Origin: Algoriphagus hitonicola
Lineage (GTDB): Bacteria; Bacteroidota; Bacteroidia; Cytophagales; Cyclobacteriaceae
NCBI RefSeq assembly: GCF_900113375.1
Contig: NZ_FOPC01000018.1
Location: forward strand, 1 to 64,000
DNA: 64,000 nucleotides
Direction: 5' to 3'
This document shows positions 54,321-61,030 of this stretch, one piece after another. The stretch's first letter is position 1, and each line of letters starts with the position of its first letter. The notes beneath the pieces were generated by a model. That model was not told the origin of the DNA, did no database searches, and worked only from the letters and a program-made list of their open reading frames with translations. The position numbers were made by a program, and so were the translations under genes.

Positions 54321-55586
54321 TCAAGCTTTTCCTCTCAGCATCAGATTCCAATACATAAATGGAAGCCCGTACTTTTTAAGTAGCCACATACTCCATTGTT
54401 CCTTAGAGGTATCGACAAATTTGGATATCACTGGATCACTGTCTCGGACATTGTCGTATTTGAATTCTGCCAGAACCATTTTTCCATAGCCGGTGACCAA
54501 AGGACAGGACGAATATCCTTCGTAAGAGGCCTTCCCGACATTTTGGGTTTGGATGAGCTTTAATAAATTTTCCACGACTACCGGAGCCTGTTTTCGAATT
54601 GCCGCTCCGGTTTTTGCGGTGGGAAGATGAGCCACATCCCCCAAGGCAAAGATATTTCCAAATCGCTTATGCTGAAGGGTATGAATGTCCACGTCCACCC
54701 ATCCTTTTCCCGGACCTTCTTGAATCGAAATCTCGGATTCCTGAATAAATTTTGGAGCCATCTGCGGTGGTGCGAGGTGCAGCATGTCAAAATGCAGTTT
54801 GATTTCCGTATCTCCGGTCAACTCTTCCCCGATTGGATTTCCTGAAGTGACTCCACAATTGCTACTTTCTCCGGGTTTGATGTAAGTGAAGTAAATTTCC
54901 TGTTTTTCTGCATCGATTTTTGTGGGTGCATAAAATGGCTTAAAAATAATATCTCTTTCATGGATGATCTTATTCAAGGTTTTTGCAAAATCCGGAACGC
55001 CAAAAATCACGGTTCCCGGAGTGGCAAAAATCACATTGGTCTTATTGCGAACGCCACTTTTCCGAAAGTATTCCTCGGCCAAATACATGATTTTTTGTGG
55101 AGCTCCTCCGCATTTGATCGGGGTGGTCGGTTGTGTAAATACGGCATTTCCCCCTTTGAAATTTTTTAAGACCTCCCAAGTATGCTCAGGATCGGTGTAA
55201 TTGCTGCAAACCACACCTTTATCCATGGCCTCTTTCAGTCCCGGAAGTAATTCAGGAGCCATCACTAACCCAGGGGCCACGATCAGAAAGTCATAGCTGA
55301 CTTCTCCACTTTTAGCCGTTTTAACCCGATTTGTTTTGGGTGTGATATCCGTTGCTTTATCCTTAATCCAATCTACTCCTTTGGGAATATAATCAGCTTC
55401 CTCGCGCTCGGTATCCTTATAATCAAAAGTGCCTGCACCGACCAGCGTCCATGCGGGCTGATAGTAATGCTTTTCAGATGGCTCGATAATGGCAATTTTC
55501 AACTCCTTATCTTTTCGCTTGAGTTGAGCTGCAACTGTAATTCCGGCAGTTCCCCCGCCGATGATTAAAATTTGATAATGGTTCAT
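54321..55586 (-). CDS. sqr: Sulfide:quinone oxidoreductase
   Basis: 421 residues. FAD-binding 'ILIIGGGTAGITVAAQLKRK' at the start and 'RFGNIFALGDVAHLPTAKTG' near 310-326. The three cysteines that mark SQRs are in place: Cys127 ('GVVCSNYTDPEHTW'), Cys159 ('PTTPIKCGGAPQKIMYL') and Cys361 ('YSSCPLVTGYGKMVLAEF'). It oxidises sulfide to polysulfide or sulfane sulfur and passes electrons to menaquinone, at the inner face of the membrane. It diverges from a Crp/Fnr gene 500 bases away, and its promoter carries the same operator as that gene, a TauE gene and a rhodanese gene. Confidence 0.9.
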   Translation of the reverse strand: MNHYQILIIGGGTAGITVAAQLKRKDKELKIAIIEPSEKHYYQPAWTLVGAGTFDYKDTEREEADYIPKGVDWIKDKATDITPKTNRVKTAKSGEVSYDFLIVAPGLVMAPELLPGLKEAMDKGVVCSNYTDPEHTWEVLKNFKGGNAVFTQPTTPIKCGGAPQKIMYLAEEYFRKSGVRNKTNVIFATPGTVIFGVPDFAKTLNKIIHERDIIFKPFYAPTKIDAEKQEIYFTYIKPGESSNCGVTSGNPIGEELTGDTEIKLHFDMLHLAPPQMAPKFIQESEISIQEGPGKGWVDVDIHTLQHKRFGNIFALGDVAHLPTAKTGAAIRKQAPVVVENLLKLIQTQNVGKASYEGYSSCPLVTGYGKMVLAEFKYDNVRDSDPVISKFVDTSKEQWSMWLLKKYGLPFMYWNLMLRGKA

Positions 55587-55607: not shown

Positions 55608-55652
55608 AAAAGGTAAGAACTGTCACTAAGTAATTTGGTGACTTTCATCACC
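55608..55652 (-). promoter_or_regulatory. sqr promoter with Crp-type operator
   Basis: GTGAC (55638-55642) and ATCAC (55647-55651) with TTTC between, within the longer palindrome GGTGA-CTTTCA-TCACC. On the minus strand TACCTTTT (55615-55608) is a near match to the -7 TAnnTTTG. The operator centre is 29.5 bases from the T of the -7 element, the same as at the other sites. The site lies about 50-65 bases upstream of the sqr ATG. Confidence 0.75.
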
Positions 55653-55741
55653 TTTCTTATTTATTTACTGCGGATTGCATTTGCATACTCTTAATTGATG
55701 AGAGTTTGGAATTCCCTCACCCAACATCGGACCTTCATCAT

Positions 55742-55877
55742 TTCAGATTTACGAGTTAAGATTTACGAGGTGCAGAGCATAATTAGGCCTATAATTTATC
55801 CAAATCATGCATTTTAAAATATTCAAACCGCTTGTTTTTTGACCTACCAACCGCGACTTCCTCCTTCGGTCTTCCGT
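55742..55877 (+). repeat. Dispersed repeat, copy A
   Basis: About 136 bases: ATTTACGAGGTGCAGAG, a core (55785-55827) that begins AGGCCTATAAT and includes ATCATGCATTTTAAAATATT, then CTTCCGTCTTCGGTCT. The core is repeated almost without change at 57969-58011, in the same orientation. Confidence 0.8.
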
Positions 55878-56031
55878 CTTCGGTCTCCCGTCTTCCATTC
55901 TCCAACACCGGACACCGGACACCTGGCATCAATCCCTTTCAGATTCCTCACTTTACAAATCAGACTTTCAGGGAACTACCTCTTGCCTTAGATCTCCTGA
56001 CATAGATTTTAGGAATCGAAATTCTCAGTTT

Positions 56032-56075
56032 GTGATATTTATCACTATTTTCACATCCGTTGAACCATAGATTCG
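56032..56075 (+). promoter_or_regulatory. crp promoter with Crp-type operator (autoregulation)
   Basis: GTGATA (56032-56037) and TATCAC (56040-56045), a perfect 14-base palindrome with two central T. TAGATTCG (56068-56075) is a -7 element with one mismatch. Centre to -7: 29.5 bases. The gene starts at 56094. Confidence 0.75.
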
Positions 56076-56093
56076 TAGTTTTTTAAAAACAAG

Positions 56094-56750
56094 ATGACAA
56101 TCGAAGAACTTAAAGCCGCATTACCCAATTTCACTGATCCCAAACTACTGGAGGCCATTTTGGAAAAAGGCCAAATTTTAAAACTTGAGCCTGGAAAAGT
56201 CCTGATGGAGCCCGGCAAGTTTATCAAAATGGTACCTATCGTATTGGAGGGGTCTATCAAAATCCTCCGAATGGATGAAGATGGAAAAGAATTATTTTTG
56301 TATTACCTGGATGCTGGAGAGACTTGTGCGCTTTCCCTGACTTGCTGTACTGCATCTAAACCATCAGAAATCAAGGCAATTGTGGAGGATCCGACTACCT
56401 TGATTGCCATACCTGTGGCTATTCATGAGCAGCTTTCGGATGAGTTTAAGCAGTGGAAGGATTTTGTGTCCTCCACTTATCAAAATAGATTTCAGGAAAT
56501 GCTTATTGCCCTTGATGCAGTAGCTTTTAAGCGAATGGACGAACGCCTGATGCGCTACATCGTCACCAAAATGAAGCAACATAAAACCAACGAGCTTCAC
56601 ACTACCCATCAAGAAATTGCCAATGAACTTGGTACTTCCCGGGAGGTAATTTCTCGTCTACTAAAGCAGCTTGAAAAGAAAAAATGGATCGAACTCGGAA
56701 GAAATGTGATCTACATCCGCGACGACTTTGAGGAGTTGATTAGTAAGTAA
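56094..56750 (+). CDS. Crp/Fnr-family transcriptional regulator
   Basis: 218 residues. N-terminal cyclic-nucleotide-binding-like barrel ('ILKLEPGKVLMEPGKFIKMV', 'PIVLEGSIKILRMDEDGKEL') and C-terminal winged helix ('HTTHQEIANELGTSREVISR', 'LLKQLEKKKWIELG'). The recognition helix keeps Arg183, Glu184 and Arg188, the residues that read GTGA in E. coli CRP. Cys78, Cys84 and Cys85 ('CALSLTCCTASKP') could sense oxidants or sulfur species. There is no complete cAMP pocket. Its own promoter and those of sqr, tauE and the rhodanese gene carry GTGA-type palindromes, so it is the likely activator of the module. It lies between two direct repeats (copies A and B). Confidence 0.9.
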   Translation: MTIEELKAALPNFTDPKLLEAILEKGQILKLEPGKVLMEPGKFIKMVPIVLEGSIKILRMDEDGKELFLYYLDAGETCALSLTCCTASKPSEIKAIVEDPTTLIAIPVAIHEQLSDEFKQWKDFVSSTYQNRFQEMLIALDAVAFKRMDERLMRYIVTKMKQHKTNELHTTHQEIANELGTSREVISRLLKQLEKKKWIELGRNVIYIRDDFEELISK

Positions 56751-56949
56751 ACCCGGAGGTAGTTTTTTAGGGAAAAACATAATTGGTTTTCCTTAATTAA
56801 GCTTTAACGCAGTGATTTTCTCCTCTCTTTAAAAGGATCAATCTCGGTGGCCGACCCCGGTCACTGAGCTTGTCGAAGTGTCGAGGGCATTTTGAATTAC
56901 TGGCAAAGAAGCGGATAATCAGATTATTTTTTTATTAAACTTTCTCCAT

Positions 56950-56993
56950 GTGATTCTTATCCTAATTATTTTCCAGAATTAGCTGTATTTTAG
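56950..56993 (+). promoter_or_regulatory. Weak Crp-type site upstream of the universal stress protein gene
   Basis: GTGAT (56950-56954) then TCTT then ATCCT (56959-56963), one mismatch from the palindrome. TATTTTAG (56986-56993) is a partial -7 match. The spacing (29.5 bases) is the same as at the four better sites, which is why it is listed. Confidence 0.5.
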
Positions 56994-57014
56994 GATTATT
57001 AAGCGATAGAAAAA

Positions 57015-57818
57015 ATGAAAATTTTAATTCCTGTTGATTTTTCGAAAAACTCCGAAAAAGCCCTTCAATTTGCGCTAAAATTATTTCCAGAAAATGAACT
57101 GGATATTGTTCTGGTTCATGTGGTCGAGTTGGTTTATGATTTCGCCTCTCAGGCAGCTTTGGCTTTGGATAGCATGCACAAGGATGCCGAAAAGCTTATC
57201 AAAAATCTCAAAGCCAAATATCAAGATGATCGAATTCATATCGAAGGTAAAGTGAAGGAGGGAACTCCATCCATTACACTAGCCCGGCTGGCAGAGGAAG
57301 AAGAGGCAAGTCTGATCGTCATGGGAACCAAAGGAGCTAGTGGGGTGAAAAAAGTTTTGGTCGGATCCACGGCTACTAACCTGATTAAAGAATCTACTAT
57401 TCCCGTTTTACTCGTTCCGGAGGAAGCAAAATCTGAAGGTGTAAATCGACTGATTTTAGCCTTGGAGTTTGCTGATCATGAGGAGAATTTAGTTGATTGG
57501 GTTTACCATTTTTCTAATACTTGGACAGTAAAGCCAGAGATTCTACATGTTCAGACTGCCCTTGGATTTAGAGAACAGATACTTGCTTTGGGATTTGAGC
57601 AATATATTCAGGAAAAATTCCCTTCTCAGCCTACCAAAATCCATCTCATTGAATCAAGTAAAGTCAATGAGGGAATTGAAGATTTTCTAAACCAGGAAGA
57701 AAATATCATGCTGGTCATGTGTCACTCACATCATGGAATTTGGGATCAACTCTGGGGAAAAAGCAAGTCCATCGAAATGGCCTATCATTCCAAAGTCCCC
57801 CTTTTGATCATGGTTTGA
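57015..57818 (+). CDS. Universal stress protein, two-domain
   Basis: 267 residues. First USP domain about 1-137 with 'KILIPVDFSKNSEKALQFAL' and the complete ATP loop 'IVMGTKGASGVKKVLVGSTA'. The second (about 140-267) is degenerate ('LILALEFADHEENLVDWVYH', 'NIMLVMCHSHHGIWDQLW') and lacks the loop. It lies downstream of the Crp/Fnr gene on the same strand, in the segment between the two direct repeats, and has a weak Crp-type site. Confidence 0.9.
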   Translation: MKILIPVDFSKNSEKALQFALKLFPENELDIVLVHVVELVYDFASQAALALDSMHKDAEKLIKNLKAKYQDDRIHIEGKVKEGTPSITLARLAEEEEASLIVMGTKGASGVKKVLVGSTATNLIKESTIPVLLVPEEAKSEGVNRLILALEFADHEENLVDWVYHFSNTWTVKPEILHVQTALGFREQILALGFEQYIQEKFPSQPTKIHLIESSKVNEGIEDFLNQEENIMLVMCHSHHGIWDQLWGKSKSIEMAYHSKVPLLIMV

Positions 57819-57924
57819 GGGATGGGTAAAAGTAGCTGTCAGCTTTCACGCTTTCCGAAATGATAGCTCTGTCATGGCCTACTTCCGTCTCCCGTCTTTA
57901 ACATCGGACACCGGACATCGGACA

Positions 57925-58072
57925 TTTCAGATTTACGAATTACGATTTACGAGGTGCAGAGTCGAATTAGGCCTATAATCTATCCAAATCATGCATTTTA
58001 AAATATTCAAATCGGTTGTTTTTCGATCTGCCAACTGAAAACTGCGACTGCCTACTTCCGTCTTCCGTCTTC
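57925..58072 (+). repeat. Dispersed repeat, copy B
   Basis: About 148 bases, same order as copy A: GATTTACGAGGTGCAGAG, the core (57969-58011) that begins AGGCCTATAAT, and CTTCCGTCTTCCGTCTTC. The downstream GAGCTCAGTCGAAGC (about 58115) and the upstream ACTGAGCTTGTCGAAGT (about 56863) are further, smaller repeat motifs common in bacterial genomes. Confidence 0.8.
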
Positions 58073-58171
58073 TGTCTCCAGACATAAGACTATTTCAGAT
58101 TTCTGATTCTTGTGCTGAGCTCAGTCGAAGCATTAGACTTTAGCTATTCCTTTCACTCCCTCTCCCCACAT

Positions 58172-58216
58172 GTGACATTTGTTACTGCACCACTCTAATT
58201 CATAAGAGTACTTTTG
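58172..58216 (+). promoter_or_regulatory. tauE-operon promoter with Crp-type operator
   Basis: GTGAC (58172-58176), ATTT, GTTAC (58181-58185). TACTTTTG (58209-58216) is an exact TAnnTTTG -7 element. Centre to -7 is 30.5 bases. The gene starts at 58243. Confidence 0.78.
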
Positions 58217-58242
58217 TGCCATAAAACTTTAAATTTGAAATT

Positions 58243-59049
58243 ATGGATGTAATTGTCCTCATTGGATTTGCAGCAGCAGTTATAATAGGAGTGAGTTTGG
58301 GTCTTATCGGAGGTGGAGGTTCTATCCTTACCGTTCCGGTACTCGTTTATATTTTGGACGTGGATCCCGTACTCGCCACAGCTTATTCGCTCTTTGTAGT
58401 TGGGACCACCTCCCTAGTAGGAGCGGGTAATTTCATGAAGCAAGGCAAAGTAGACTACAAAACTGCGGTGGTTTTTGCCATTCCTTCATTTATCGCGGTA
58501 TTCCTTACCCGAAAGTTTCTCGTTCCTTGGCTTCCCGATCCCCTCTTTACAGTTGGTGAATTTGCCATCACTAAAAATGTTGGGATCATGGTTTTCTTTG
58601 CCCTCATCATGCTGGCGGCTTCCTATTCCATGATTAAGGACAATAAAAAACTCAAACCAGAAGGAAGCGGAGAACTTAAATTCAATATCCCTCTTATCGC
58701 CTTGGAAGGATCGGTAGTCGGAGTGATTACCGGGATAGTCGGTGCAGGAGGTGGATTTTTGATTATTCCTGCTTTGGTGATTTTGGCCAAGCTTCCTATG
58801 AAATTGGCAGTGGGTACTTCATTGCTTATTATCGCAGCCAAATCTCTGATTGGGTTTTTGGGAGACTTGGGTAATCAAACCATTGATTGGCAAATGCTAC
58901 TGATCTTTACTGGTCTATCGGTCGTCGGGATCTTTATCGGAACTGCGCTTTCCAAAAAAATAAATGAAAAGGCACTTAAAACAGGTTTCGGTTGGTTTGT
59001 GTTAATCATGGGTATATACATCATTGGCAAGGAGCTGATGGCAGTTTAA
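58243..59049 (+). CDS. TauE/SafE-family sulfite or sulfur-compound exporter
   Basis: 268 residues, about eight membrane helices in two homologous halves, each beginning with a Gly-rich helix ('GVSLGLIGGGGSILTVPVLV' and 'GVITGIVGAGGGFLIIPALV'). TauE/SafE proteins export sulfite, sulfoacetate or related anions. In this neighbourhood, with sqr and a rhodanese, export of sulfite or thiosulfate formed from sulfide is the likely task (inference). First gene of an operon with the hydroxylase and a small membrane protein. Confidence 0.88.
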   Translation: MDVIVLIGFAAAVIIGVSLGLIGGGGSILTVPVLVYILDVDPVLATAYSLFVVGTTSLVGAGNFMKQGKVDYKTAVVFAIPSFIAVFLTRKFLVPWLPDPLFTVGEFAITKNVGIMVFFALIMLAASYSMIKDNKKLKPEGSGELKFNIPLIALEGSVVGVITGIVGAGGGFLIIPALVILAKLPMKLAVGTSLLIIAAKSLIGFLGDLGNQTIDWQMLLIFTGLSVVGIFIGTALSKKINEKALKTGFGWFVLIMGIYIIGKELMAV

Positions 59050-59061
59050 CTCGAATTCGCT

Positions 59062-59940
59062 TTGGAAAAATATTTCAAAATAATTATTGATGGCTACTAT
59101 GGGTATTGGGATTATCTGACCTCAGAGATTCTATACCCATCTTGGCACAATTACTTCTATTGGCTTATCGGACTTTCGGTCTTTGTATTTGCGCTGGAAG
59201 TGATTGTGCCTTGGAGAAAATCCCAGCCAATTTTCCGAAAGGACTTTTGGCTGGATGTATTCTACATGTTTTTTAACTTCTTCCTGTTTTCGCTGATTCT
59301 CTACAATGCACTATCCAATGTATTCGTAGAGCTCTTCAATGACTTTCTGGGAATCTTTGGCATTACCAATTTAGTGGCACTGGAGATTAATTCCTGGCCG
59401 ATTTGGGGGCAGTTTCTGCTGATGCTGGTTTTGGCTGATTTTATTCAGTGGAATGTCCACCGCATGTTACATCGGGTACCTTGGCTCTGGGAATTTCACA
59501 AAGTTCACCATTCCGTCGAGCAAATGGGCTTTGCTGCTCACCTCAGGTATCACTGGATGGAGACGATCGTCTATAAATCTGTGCAATATCTTCCCCTAGC
59601 TATGATCGGTTTTGGACTGGATGATTTCTTTATTCTACACATTTTCACCATAGCTATCGGTCACCTCAATCACGCCAATCTTAAAATCACCTACGGACCT
59701 TTCAAATACATCTTAAATAACCCCATTATGCACACCTGGCATCACGTGAAGCACTTGCCATCGGATCGTCCTCATGGAGTTAATTATGGGATTACGCTTA
59801 GTTTATGGGATTATTTATTCGGCACGGCCTACATTCCGCACGATGGAGAAAATGAAGCCCTGGGCTTTGACAAAGTTGAAGAATTTCCGCAGACCTTCTG
59901 GTCACAAATCACCTATCCATGGCTGAAAAAGAAAGCATAA
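59062..59940 (+). CDS. Fatty acid hydroxylase/sterol desaturase family membrane protein
   Basis: 292 residues. The start is TTG at 59062, 12 bases after the tauE stop; no in-frame ATG comes early enough. About four membrane helices and three His clusters bind a di-iron centre: 'HRMLH', 'HKVHHSVEQMGFAAHLRYHW' and 'HTWHHVKH'. 'IGHLNHANLKITYGPFKYIL' is the conserved loop. Family members hydroxylate or desaturate lipids with O2. Homologues are often found next to TauE in Bacteroidota (established only by recollection); the substrate is unknown. Confidence 0.88.
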   Translation: MEKYFKIIIDGYYGYWDYLTSEILYPSWHNYFYWLIGLSVFVFALEVIVPWRKSQPIFRKDFWLDVFYMFFNFFLFSLILYNALSNVFVELFNDFLGIFGITNLVALEINSWPIWGQFLLMLVLADFIQWNVHRMLHRVPWLWEFHKVHHSVEQMGFAAHLRYHWMETIVYKSVQYLPLAMIGFGLDDFFILHIFTIAIGHLNHANLKITYGPFKYILNNPIMHTWHHVKHLPSDRPHGVNYGITLSLWDYLFGTAYIPHDGENEALGFDKVEEFPQTFWSQITYPWLKKKA

Positions 59941-60179
59941 AATCCATCAATCCGCTCAATAATTGGATTTCAGTTTTGATGCTCACCTTTTTCTTAGGCT
60001 TGGCGCCATTTTTCCCCGAGCCGCATATTTGGGGAAAATTAAAATGGGTAGCAGGAGGAGCAGTTGGAATGAAATTAATGGATTGGGGCGACTTGCTTTT
60101 TCATGGTTTTCCATGGATTTTGTTGATTCGATTATCCATCATCCAACTGAAGTCAAAATTCAAAGCAGCAAAAGTTTAG
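59919..60179 (+). CDS. Small membrane protein
   Basis: 86 residues, two predicted helices ('WISVLMLTFFLGLAPFFPEP' and 'WILLIRLSIIQLK') around a Gly-rich turn ('WVAGGAVGMKLMDWGDLLFH'). It overlaps the hydroxylase gene by 22 bases, so the two are translated together. No family is recognised. Its fixed place suggests a partner of the hydroxylase or TauE. Confidence 0.7.
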   Translation: MAEKESIKSINPLNNWISVLMLTFFLGLAPFFPEPHIWGKLKWVAGGAVGMKLMDWGDLLFHGFPWILLIRLSIIQLKSKFKAAKV

Positions 60180-60181
60180 CT

Positions 60182-60225
60182 GTGACTTTTATTACTGATC
60201 AAAATCAGTAAAGACGGTAGTTTTG
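60182..60225 (+). promoter_or_regulatory. Rhodanese promoter with Crp-type operator
   Basis: GTGAC (60182-60186), TTTT, ATTAC (60191-60195). TAGTTTTG (60218-60225) is an exact -7 element. Centre to -7 is 29.5 bases. The site starts two bases after the stop of the small membrane protein gene, so the rhodanese gene has its own promoter. CTGAT-CAAA-ATCAG (60195-60208) is a further palindrome just downstream. Confidence 0.78.
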
Positions 60226-60255: not shown

Positions 60256-60591
60256 ATGTTTGACTTCTTTAAAGCAAAACCAAAAAACTACGAGGATATT
60301 CCCGTAGGTGAATTTCATAATTTGATGCTACAACCCAACACCGTGATTCTTGATGTGAGAACTCCCGGTGAGTTTGCAGGAGGTAAAATCAGAGGTGCTC
60401 GAAACATCGATTTGATGTCACGGGATTTTACCAAGCAAATCCAAAATCTCCCCAAAGACAAAACCTATCTGGTTTATTGTCGAAGCGGAAACAGAAGTGG
60501 ACAAGCTTGCGAAATCATGGCGGATATGGGCTTCGAAAACTGTAAAAATATGTCCGGAGGGATCATGAGGTGGCCTTTCGAAACGGTTTAA
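60256..60591 (+). CDS. Rhodanese-like sulfurtransferase
   Basis: 111 residues from the ATG at 60256. Single rhodanese domain with 'NTVILDVRTPGEFAGGKIRG', 'ARNIDLMS' and the active-site loop 'YLVYCRSGNRSGQACEIMAD' (Cys persulfide). It moves sulfane sulfur, for example from SQR products to a thiol acceptor. A terminator follows. It is the last gene of the sulfide module. Confidence 0.92.
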   Translation: MFDFFKAKPKNYEDIPVGEFHNLMLQPNTVILDVRTPGEFAGGKIRGARNIDLMSRDFTKQIQNLPKDKTYLVYCRSGNRSGQACEIMADMGFENCKNMSGGIMRWPFETV

Positions 60592-60639: not shown

Positions 60640-60710
60640 GCCTGAACCCAAAATCTACCCTTAACCCAACAAGCAATCTTCTTCAGGTCTCCAATACCTC
60701 AATTCATTAG

Positions 60711-61030
60711 TTCGACAGTACCCCGATTGAGTGTAAATAGAAAGAAATGAAAAGTAAACAGTGGGAAACCGACGCCTTAACCCATAACCATTAACCATTA
60801 ACCTTTTGGAAATGAGACTTCCCTCTTCAACCTATTCAATTAAACAGTTCATCAGTTCCCCAGTTCGACAGTACCCCGATTGAGTGTAAATAGAAAGAAA
60901 TGAAAAGTAAACATGGGAAACCGACGCCTTAACCCATAACCATTAACCATTAACCTTTTGGAACTGAGACTTTCCTCTTCAACCTGTTCAGTTAAACAGT
61001 TCATCAGTTCCCCAGTTCGACAGTACCCCG
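60711..61030 (+). repeat. Tandem repeat of 152-153 bases, 2.1 copies
   Basis: Copies at 60711-60863 and 60864-61015, and a partial third at 61016-61030, each beginning TTCGACAGTACCCCG. They are nearly identical (one deletion, a few substitutions). Inside each is the short repeat CATAACCATTAACCATTAACC. No open frame is conserved. It fills the 460-base gap between the rhodanese and TIGR03643-type genes. Confidence 0.85.

Follow-up and report, generated by a model that had tools for sequence, protein, structure and literature searches.

The regulator crp and its putative binding sites were investigated in a 64,000-nucleotide stretch of Algoriphagus hitonicola (contig NZ_FOPC01000018.1, positions 1 to 64,000; the window). 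The best explanation, with a probability of about 0.7, is that crp encodes a cyclic AMP (cAMP)-independent-looking Crp/Fnr dimer which would serve a genome-wide sulfur regulon by class II activation, with reactive sulfur as the likely signal through Cys78 and Cys84/85. An earlier sequence-only reading had proposed sites before sqr, crp, tauE and a rhodanese gene. Its observations were confirmed, and its interpretation is supported by the comparisons below.

In the proposed mechanism, a persulfide or polysulfide would modify Cys78 and Cys84/85, which lie in the presumed counterpart of the cAMP-holding loop of E. coli CRP. The modified dimer would change shape, as CRP does with cAMP, and would bind GTGAY-N4-RTYAC near -41.5, at about the position of the -33 element. 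The promoters would keep a TAnnTTTG-like -7 element and be subject to class II activation. The Bacteroidota promoter consensus (-33/-7), the class II geometry and the cAMP contact residues of CRP are general knowledge. The predicted regulon contains sqr, crp, the tauE operon, the rhodanese gene, trx and two persulfide-dioxygenase-like (metallo-beta-lactamase/rhodanese) genes. It also takes in transporters of the YeeE/YedE type, a TsdA/SoxA-like cytochrome and some genes of thiol redox.

Sites in the window and their conservation

The genes, sites and -7 elements concerned are as follows.

54321..55586, minus strand: sqr, sulfide:quinone oxidoreductase-like flavoprotein (Pyr_redox_2; PDB match)
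55608..55615, minus strand: sqr -7 element TACCTTTT, one mismatch
55638..55651, minus strand: sqr site GTGATGAAAGTCAC, symmetrical, conserved in relatives
56032..56045, plus strand: crp site GTGATATTTATCAC, autoregulation candidate, conserved in relatives
56068..56075, plus strand: crp -7 element TAGATTCG, one mismatch
56094..56750, plus strand: crp, Crp/Fnr-type regulator of 218 amino acids (PF13545 and PF00027 over cut-off)
58172..58185, plus strand: tauE site GTGACATTTGTTAC, conserved 56/56
58209..58216, plus strand: tauE -7 element TACTTTTG, exact TAnnTTTG
58243..59049, plus strand: tauE, TauE/SafE-type exporter (PF01925)
60182..60195, plus strand: rhodanese-gene site GTGACTTTTATTAC, conserved 37/40
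60218..60225, plus strand: rhodanese-gene -7 element TAGTTTTG, exact TAnnTTTG
60256..60591, plus strand: single-domain rhodanese (PF00581)

The sites were defined by the GTGAY-N4-RTYAC palindrome, and the composite was the site plus the TAnnTTTG-like -7 element, with 16 scored positions. The letters and coordinates of the four proposed palindromes were all correct. The distance from site centre to -7 element was 29.5 bases for sqr, crp and the rhodanese gene and 30.5 bases for tauE, the range first proposed. Two of the TAnnTTTG-like elements were exact (tauE and rhodanese) and two were one letter off (sqr and crp). The site centre lay 58.5 (sqr), 55.5 (crp), 64.5 (tauE) and 67.5 (rhodanese, ATG at 60256) bases from the start codon; the proposed 50–65 bases held for the first three and was slightly exceeded by the last. 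In the window, the exact pattern occurred at these four places only. With one mismatch or fewer, the window gave 27 strand matches; 100 shuffled versions averaged 14.5, and one of them reached 27.

Conservation was investigated in the best 80 of 133 named loci, mostly from Algoriphagus and close genera, at no more than 2/16 mismatches and with reversed sequences as control. The composite was found upstream of crp in 67/79, sqr in 28/34, tauE in 56/56 and the rhodanese gene in 37/40, compared with 0/209 in the reversed sequences of the four together. It was found in none of 40 loci before the operon-internal fatty-acid-hydroxylase gene. The bare site within 150 base pairs (bp) upstream gave 67/79 for crp and 25/34 for sqr. 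Some of these sites belong to a divergent neighbour, so the composite counts are preferred.

Equal frequency of the bare site at other promoters, which would have refuted the earlier reading, was not observed. The site stood within 150 bp upstream of 29 of 892 other genes, and about 24 of these appear to represent two further conserved targets: about 20 a sulfate-permease-family gene beside crp (assigned by size and place, one checked with Pfam) and 4 a SoxB-like gene (by eye). The two operon-internal genes had none in 71 regions (fatty-acid-hydroxylase gene 0/39, 86-amino-acid open reading frame (ORF) 0/32), and the reversed pattern occurred once in 1220 upstream regions.

Two further sets gave similar counts. 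In 30 Algoriphagus loci, from 59 genomes searched, the site was present before trx in 29/30, before the first metallo-beta-lactamase/rhodanese gene in 28/30 and before the porin/YeeE genes in 29/30; contig ends account for the miss in L171, and the one in L192 may have the same cause. The third set was 27 genomes of 18 other genera, selected for possessing the regulator. There, the composite with two mismatches or fewer preceded sqr in 22/22 full-length orthologues and pdoA in 21/27, and the exact composite preceded trx in 14/17 (the thioredoxin query had one extra residue ahead of Met). No full-length sqr was found in 5 of the 27 genomes. Reversed sequences of this set never fell below three mismatches. 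The sites, their spacing and their conservation are results of sequence comparison. The comparison in relatives also supports the earlier assignment of targets to sulfide oxidation, sulfur transfer and export.

Autoregulation had also been proposed. Among 30 family orthologues, an exact site lay 41–61 bp before crp in 16 and was one mismatch off in 3 (one by eye), so the proposal fits many relatives but not all.

The usp gene, for which a weaker site with the same spacing had been claimed, remains an uncertain member. Its spacing is 29.5 bases as claimed, but the site has two mismatches and the -7 element has one. Among named loci, the composite was found before usp in 6/39 and in reversed sequences in 1/39, and 10/39 orthologues had a weak site (three mismatches or fewer) at 53–58 bp. 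Full membership was rejected: 21/51 usp genes have an exact upstream site, but mostly at 126–144 bp, which is read here as the divergent tauE promoter.

The spacing also bears on the direction of control, which would be activation by the class II geometry. A repressor that covers the promoter and is released on modification, like SqrR and CstR, would explain the same sites and is judged unlikely. Known sulfur regulators of other families repress, as far as the cited excerpts describe them, and the crp2 site lies just about 18–28 bases before the start codon. Against this, a repressor site would be free to lie anywhere, whereas a strict -7 spacing, as seen over many genes and genera, is required for contact with RNA polymerase.

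In several other genera, for instance at L138:10718-13086, crp adjoins a carbonic anhydrase gene and the sulfate-permease-family gene. About 100 bp upstream of the permease gene stands a conserved GTAAC...RTCAC site.

Genome-wide pattern and regulon content

The genome (4.33 Mb) was scanned on both strands with the reversed pattern as control, a check that the sequence-only reading had suggested. The bare pattern gave 62 strand matches, compared with 32 for the reversed pattern. Counting the 16 symmetrical places once each reduces the 62 matches to 46. Placement relied on a simple ORF caller, which initially left 10 of the 42 outside sites intergenic; at least three real promoter sites (L012:5225, L013:4885 and L039:224) were first placed inside over-extended or spurious ORFs. 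After relocation of the three misplaced sites, 29 of the 42 places outside the window lay inside genes. The counts and the mostly genic places indicated a limited specificity of the bare pattern. The composite with a 22-base gap was better separated, with 39 matches versus 14 reversed at two mismatches or fewer.

Chance palindromes would account for a pattern that occurs at 46 genome places, mostly in genes. This explanation is hardly credible: fixed-spacing conservation across genera, near-empty controls and the helix-site co-variation described below all speak against it, and the footprints already contradict it.

With one mismatch or fewer, 18 composites were found (reversed-control counts exist at two mismatches or fewer), and 11 of them precede regulator or sulfur/thiol-redox genes, four of these in the window. 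Putative members outside the window were trx, the two metallo-beta-lactamase/rhodanese genes, a SoxA/TsdA-domain cytochrome gene, a 1-Cys peroxiredoxin gene, an outer-membrane-type gene that stands ahead of two YeeE/YedE-type halves, and a thioredoxin-like gene adjoining an ArsP-type permease gene. Two-mismatch composites precede a SoxB-like hydrolase gene (TIGR04486, E 6.7e-66, below cut-off) and a YgaP-like membrane gene. The sites before the four window genes stand, but composites before sulfur genes elsewhere show that the regulon is not local as first proposed. It appears to be genome-wide, with scattered genes that handle sulfide, persulfide and thiosulfate.

The other 7 of the 18 composites were not claimed as members. 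C12:142755 is inside a gene, C12:267293 is 175 bp before a sensor-kinase-like ORF (by eye), C10:310163 belongs to a di-haem peroxidase gene with the -7 sequence CACATTTG, C11:135151 to an ORF with a sub-threshold PKD match, and C13:71876 lies between two minus-strand ORFs; C11:27751 and C14:212328 were likewise left out. A YceI gene (L033) has an exact site, yet its TAnnTTTG is 51.5 bases distant, and it was also rejected.

At L012:7194-7260 (own genome, C10), the site and -7-like element are very near the first ATG of the outer-membrane-type gene, so its true start is probably a later Met; this site recurs in 29 of 30 Algoriphagus loci.

Recognition helix, cysteines and signal

The residues named in the sequence-only reading (Arg183, Glu184, Arg188 and Cys78/84/85) are all present in the window regulator.

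56325..56348, plus strand: crp codons 78–85, CALSLTCC cysteine cluster (Cys conservation in 97 relatives)
56640..56678, plus strand: crp codons 183–195, recognition helix with Arg183, Glu184 and Arg188 (residue 184 tracks the site letters)

In 97 relatives, Arg183 and Arg188 were invariant, and residue 184 was Glu in 71 and Val in 26. Palindromes near -7 elements were sought without a preset motif, 29.5–30.5 bases before an exact TAnnTTTG. The Val184 loci gave the GTAAC type (GTAAC-N4-GTTAC) in 12/17 and the Glu184 loci gave the GTGAY type in 6/8; 20 control regions gave two unrelated palindromes. When any site in the locus was taken at any spacing, the 97 rows gave Glu/GTGAY 39, Glu/GTAAC 0, Val/GTGAY 2, Val/GTAAC 16, and neither or a tie 40 (Fisher 2.6e-12, inflated by relatedness because independent changes are few). 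Outside that count, 64 loci were sorted by hand into 24 SRVV, 29 SREV and 11 others; 9 of these 11 have Glu184, and none of the 11 has a site. Many of the sites precede pdoA, tauE, YeeE or trx homologues. By this co-variation, itself a result of comparing sequences, the sites go with the recognition helix of the Crp-like protein encoded beside them. A published rule ties CRP residues 180 and 181 to half-site letters, in the excerpt of PMC1274295, and the direction of the co-variation of residue 184 with the site agrees with the rule as given there and with the HcpR2 site GTAACnnnnGTTAC. Recognition of GTGAY sites by the window protein type is supported by these comparisons.

The sites might be used mainly by the paralogue crp2 (L013:4919-5566, beside cydAB and the 1-Cys peroxiredoxin gene) or be common to both proteins. 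This is possible, though rather improbable. The crp2 helix NSSREVITRLLK is close to the crp helix GTSREVISRLLK, a near identity that makes site sharing possible, and the peroxiredoxin gene and the cydAB/crp2 gap carry the same site type. In G023 (L239), a crp2-like protein adjoins pdoA, tauE and YeeE genes with GTGAY sites. However, genomes G070 and G108, each listed with one Crp-like match, keep exact crp sites, and the tauE site is kept in G082, for which one match was likewise listed.

The site in the cydAB/crp2 gap is exact, and a -7 element directed towards cydAB stands 28.5 bases from it. At L013:4885 (own genome, C10), and also in L223 and L229, the GTGAY site is 18–28 bases before crp2 and faces cydAB, with 28.5–29.5 bases to the -7 element. 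A site so placed may turn on cytochrome bd while shutting off crp2.

The regulator belongs to the Crp/Fnr superfamily, with PF00027 and PF13545 over cut-off and CAP and FNR folds in the PDB, and is 96% identical in its nearest named relatives. It scored 56.7 bits with the NCBIfam CRP equivalog (cut-off 266), outside cAMP-CRP membership, and 29.4 bits with the Fnr model (cut-off 228). The window regulator has no cysteine before residue 78, so an FNR-type [4Fe-4S] cluster is not expected. A defence-system library gave weak matches only, most of them at the DNA-binding end.

The loop of the window regulator reads GETCALSLTCC...PSEI, and the GETCALSLTCC region is presumably the place where CRP holds cAMP. 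Seven residues were invariant in the 97 sequences: G53, Y70, C78, R132, F145, R183 and R188. Aligned sequences placed Cys78 in 97/97, Cys84 in 90/97 and Cys85 in 76/97. The AlphaFold model had a mean predicted local distance difference test score of 83.5, with values below 50 at residues 81–88. Across the phylum, 146 of 247 genomes had a match of some kind at E 0.001, in many cases a distant one, and 22 of the 26 new loci from the best phylum matches have all three cysteines.

Neighbouring genes were investigated with a query list of mainly sulfur genes. The controls were 54 regions, 34 of them from the own genome without the five loci previously called regulon; the comparison uses the 20 offset regions. 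Listed sulfur genes stood near 16/40 regulator relatives (other genera or paralogues) versus 0/20 offset regions. A sulfur neighbour was found in 32/67 relatives outside L053-L082, a set to which two Algoriphagus orthologues and the crp2 of the own genome also belong. The sites precede sqr, persulfide-dioxygenase-like and rhodanese genes, consistent with a protein that functions like a reactive-sulfur regulator. It probably senses reactive sulfur through its cysteines.

The same regulator and regulon could answer another signal (oxygen, nitric oxide, a metal or iron-sulfur cluster, peroxide or a small ligand), with the cysteines structural or cofactor-holding. This is a real possibility, although a doubtful one. 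Cys84/85 are not universal among relatives, cydAB and the peroxiredoxin gene carry such sites, and sensing of reactive sulfur is itself deduced. On the other side, the targets known by family largely make or remove reactive sulfur, Cys78 is present throughout the 97 relatives, and a first cysteine at residue 78 does not suit an FNR-type cluster.

Several results weigh against activation of a sulfur regulon by a reactive-sulfur-sensing crp. The helix-site co-variation amounts to 4 tree changes with 2 independent pairs, the pair test was not significant, and two Val184 loci carry GTGAY-type sites. Cys84 is missing in 7/97 relatives and Cys85 in 21/97. A listed sulfur gene lies within 1.5 kb in just 4/30 of the crp1 group (L053-L082), and no site was found before crp in 11/30 family orthologues. 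The crp2 helix is nearly identical and crp2 promoters carry the same sites. The composite with a 23-base gap was hardly above control (22 matches versus 19 reversed, two mismatches or fewer). Class II geometry alone does not prove activation, and the reading is drawn entirely from sequences.

Known regulators and other features

The literature cited here is taken from excerpts of the papers. E. coli CRP at class II promoters shares with the window regulator the Crp/Fnr fold and domains, and the Arg-Glu-Arg recognition helix with a GTGA half-site, which fits the residue 180/181 rule in the excerpt of PMC1274295. It differs from the window regulator, which has a cysteine cluster in the cAMP-loop region, a sulfur regulon and a low CRP-model score.

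In the same excerpt, HcpR has the site wTGTGAnnnnnnTCACAw, and HcpR2, in which Glu181 is replaced, has the site GTAACnnnnGTTAC. The sites of these nitrosative-stress Crp/Fnr regulators, as given there, resemble the GTGAY and GTAAC classes. HcpR regulons, compared by description, centre on hcp, whereas hcp was absent from the families found in the windows and promoters scanned. Unlike HcpR2, the window protein combines Glu184 with GTGAY sites; GTAAC sites do occur elsewhere, with relatives that carry Val184.

The best solved-structure sequence match was 3dv8 (E 7.4e-20), a Eubacterium rectale Crp/Fnr protein from structural genomics. Its cysteines align to Cys78 and Cys84, but Ile stands in place of Cys85. 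PgRsp and CrpPg of Porphyromonas gingivalis are also Crp/Fnr regulators of Bacteroidota, the first redox-linked and the second cAMP-independent according to the excerpts of PMC6955866 and PMC12040651; compared by description, they differ in that those excerpts describe no sulfide regulon. An Acinetobacter baumannii Crp-like protein is persulfidated with unknown effect, in the excerpt of PMC7315123.

The reactive-sulfur regulators given in the excerpts of PMC9774590, PMC8148161 and PMC9918477 are CstR/YrkD, SqrR/BigR and FisR, with OxyR, LasR and OhrR responding secondarily. CstR and SqrR/BigR are described there as repressors. Their target sets, as described, are similar to the present regulon; a Bacillus licheniformis cluster has sqr, pdo, rhodanese, TauE and thioredoxin genes under YrkD and NreBC (PMC9918477, in excerpt). 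CstR is of the CsoR family, SqrR/BigR of the ArsR family and FisR an activator, whereas the window protein has Crp/Fnr Pfam domains. The regulators named in these excerpts (CstR, SqrR/BigR and FisR, and secondarily OxyR and others) are not Crp/Fnr proteins, and no Crp/Fnr sulfur regulator of Bacteroidota was seen among the papers that searches of the open-licence literature listed.

The window protein may represent a Bacteroidota-wide Crp/Fnr subfamily in which the cAMP pocket became a cysteine-based sensor of reactive sulfur, activating the oxidation of sulfide, persulfide and thiosulfate. This would be a structural class additional to CstR, SqrR/BigR and FisR, with Glu or Val at residue 184 of the recognition helix setting GTGAY or GTAAC sites. 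The chances for and against this wider reading appear about even. With its sites defined, a rule linking residue to site and as many as three candidate cysteines for sensing, the conserved candidate regulator makes sulfide sensing and removal in Bacteroidota directly testable by ordinary biochemistry.

The other features of the region are as follows.

56950..56963, plus strand: weak usp site GTGATTCTTATCCT, two mismatches
57015..57818, plus strand: usp, universal stress protein, regulon membership uncertain (PF00582)
59062..59940, plus strand: fatty-acid-hydroxylase-family gene, probably in the tauE operon, without a site of its own (PF04116)
59919..60179, plus strand: 86-amino-acid membrane-type ORF, probably in the tauE operon (without Pfam family)

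Pfam domains over threshold were found in the regulator, usp, tauE, fatty-acid-hydroxylase and rhodanese genes, and none was found in the 86-amino-acid ORF. Sqr residues 1–418 matched the solved mitochondrial sulfide:quinone oxidoreductase with E of about 1e-106 in the PDB search.

Another Crp/Fnr protein was seen in L199 (own genome, C14:66000-70000). Its recognition helix is different, a CELCASR motif stands near the N-terminus, and a rhodanese-like ORF follows directly (by eye). Two intergenic repeats were also noticed by eye. A near-identical stretch of about 100 bases (TTTCAGATTTACGA...GGCCTATAAT...CATGCATTTTAAAATATTCAAA) lies upstream of crp (about 55740–55850) and tauE (about 57920–58030). 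The other (GTTCGACAGTACCCCGATTGAGTG...AACCATTAACC) lies downstream of the rhodanese gene, at about 60700–60790 and about 60860–61030.

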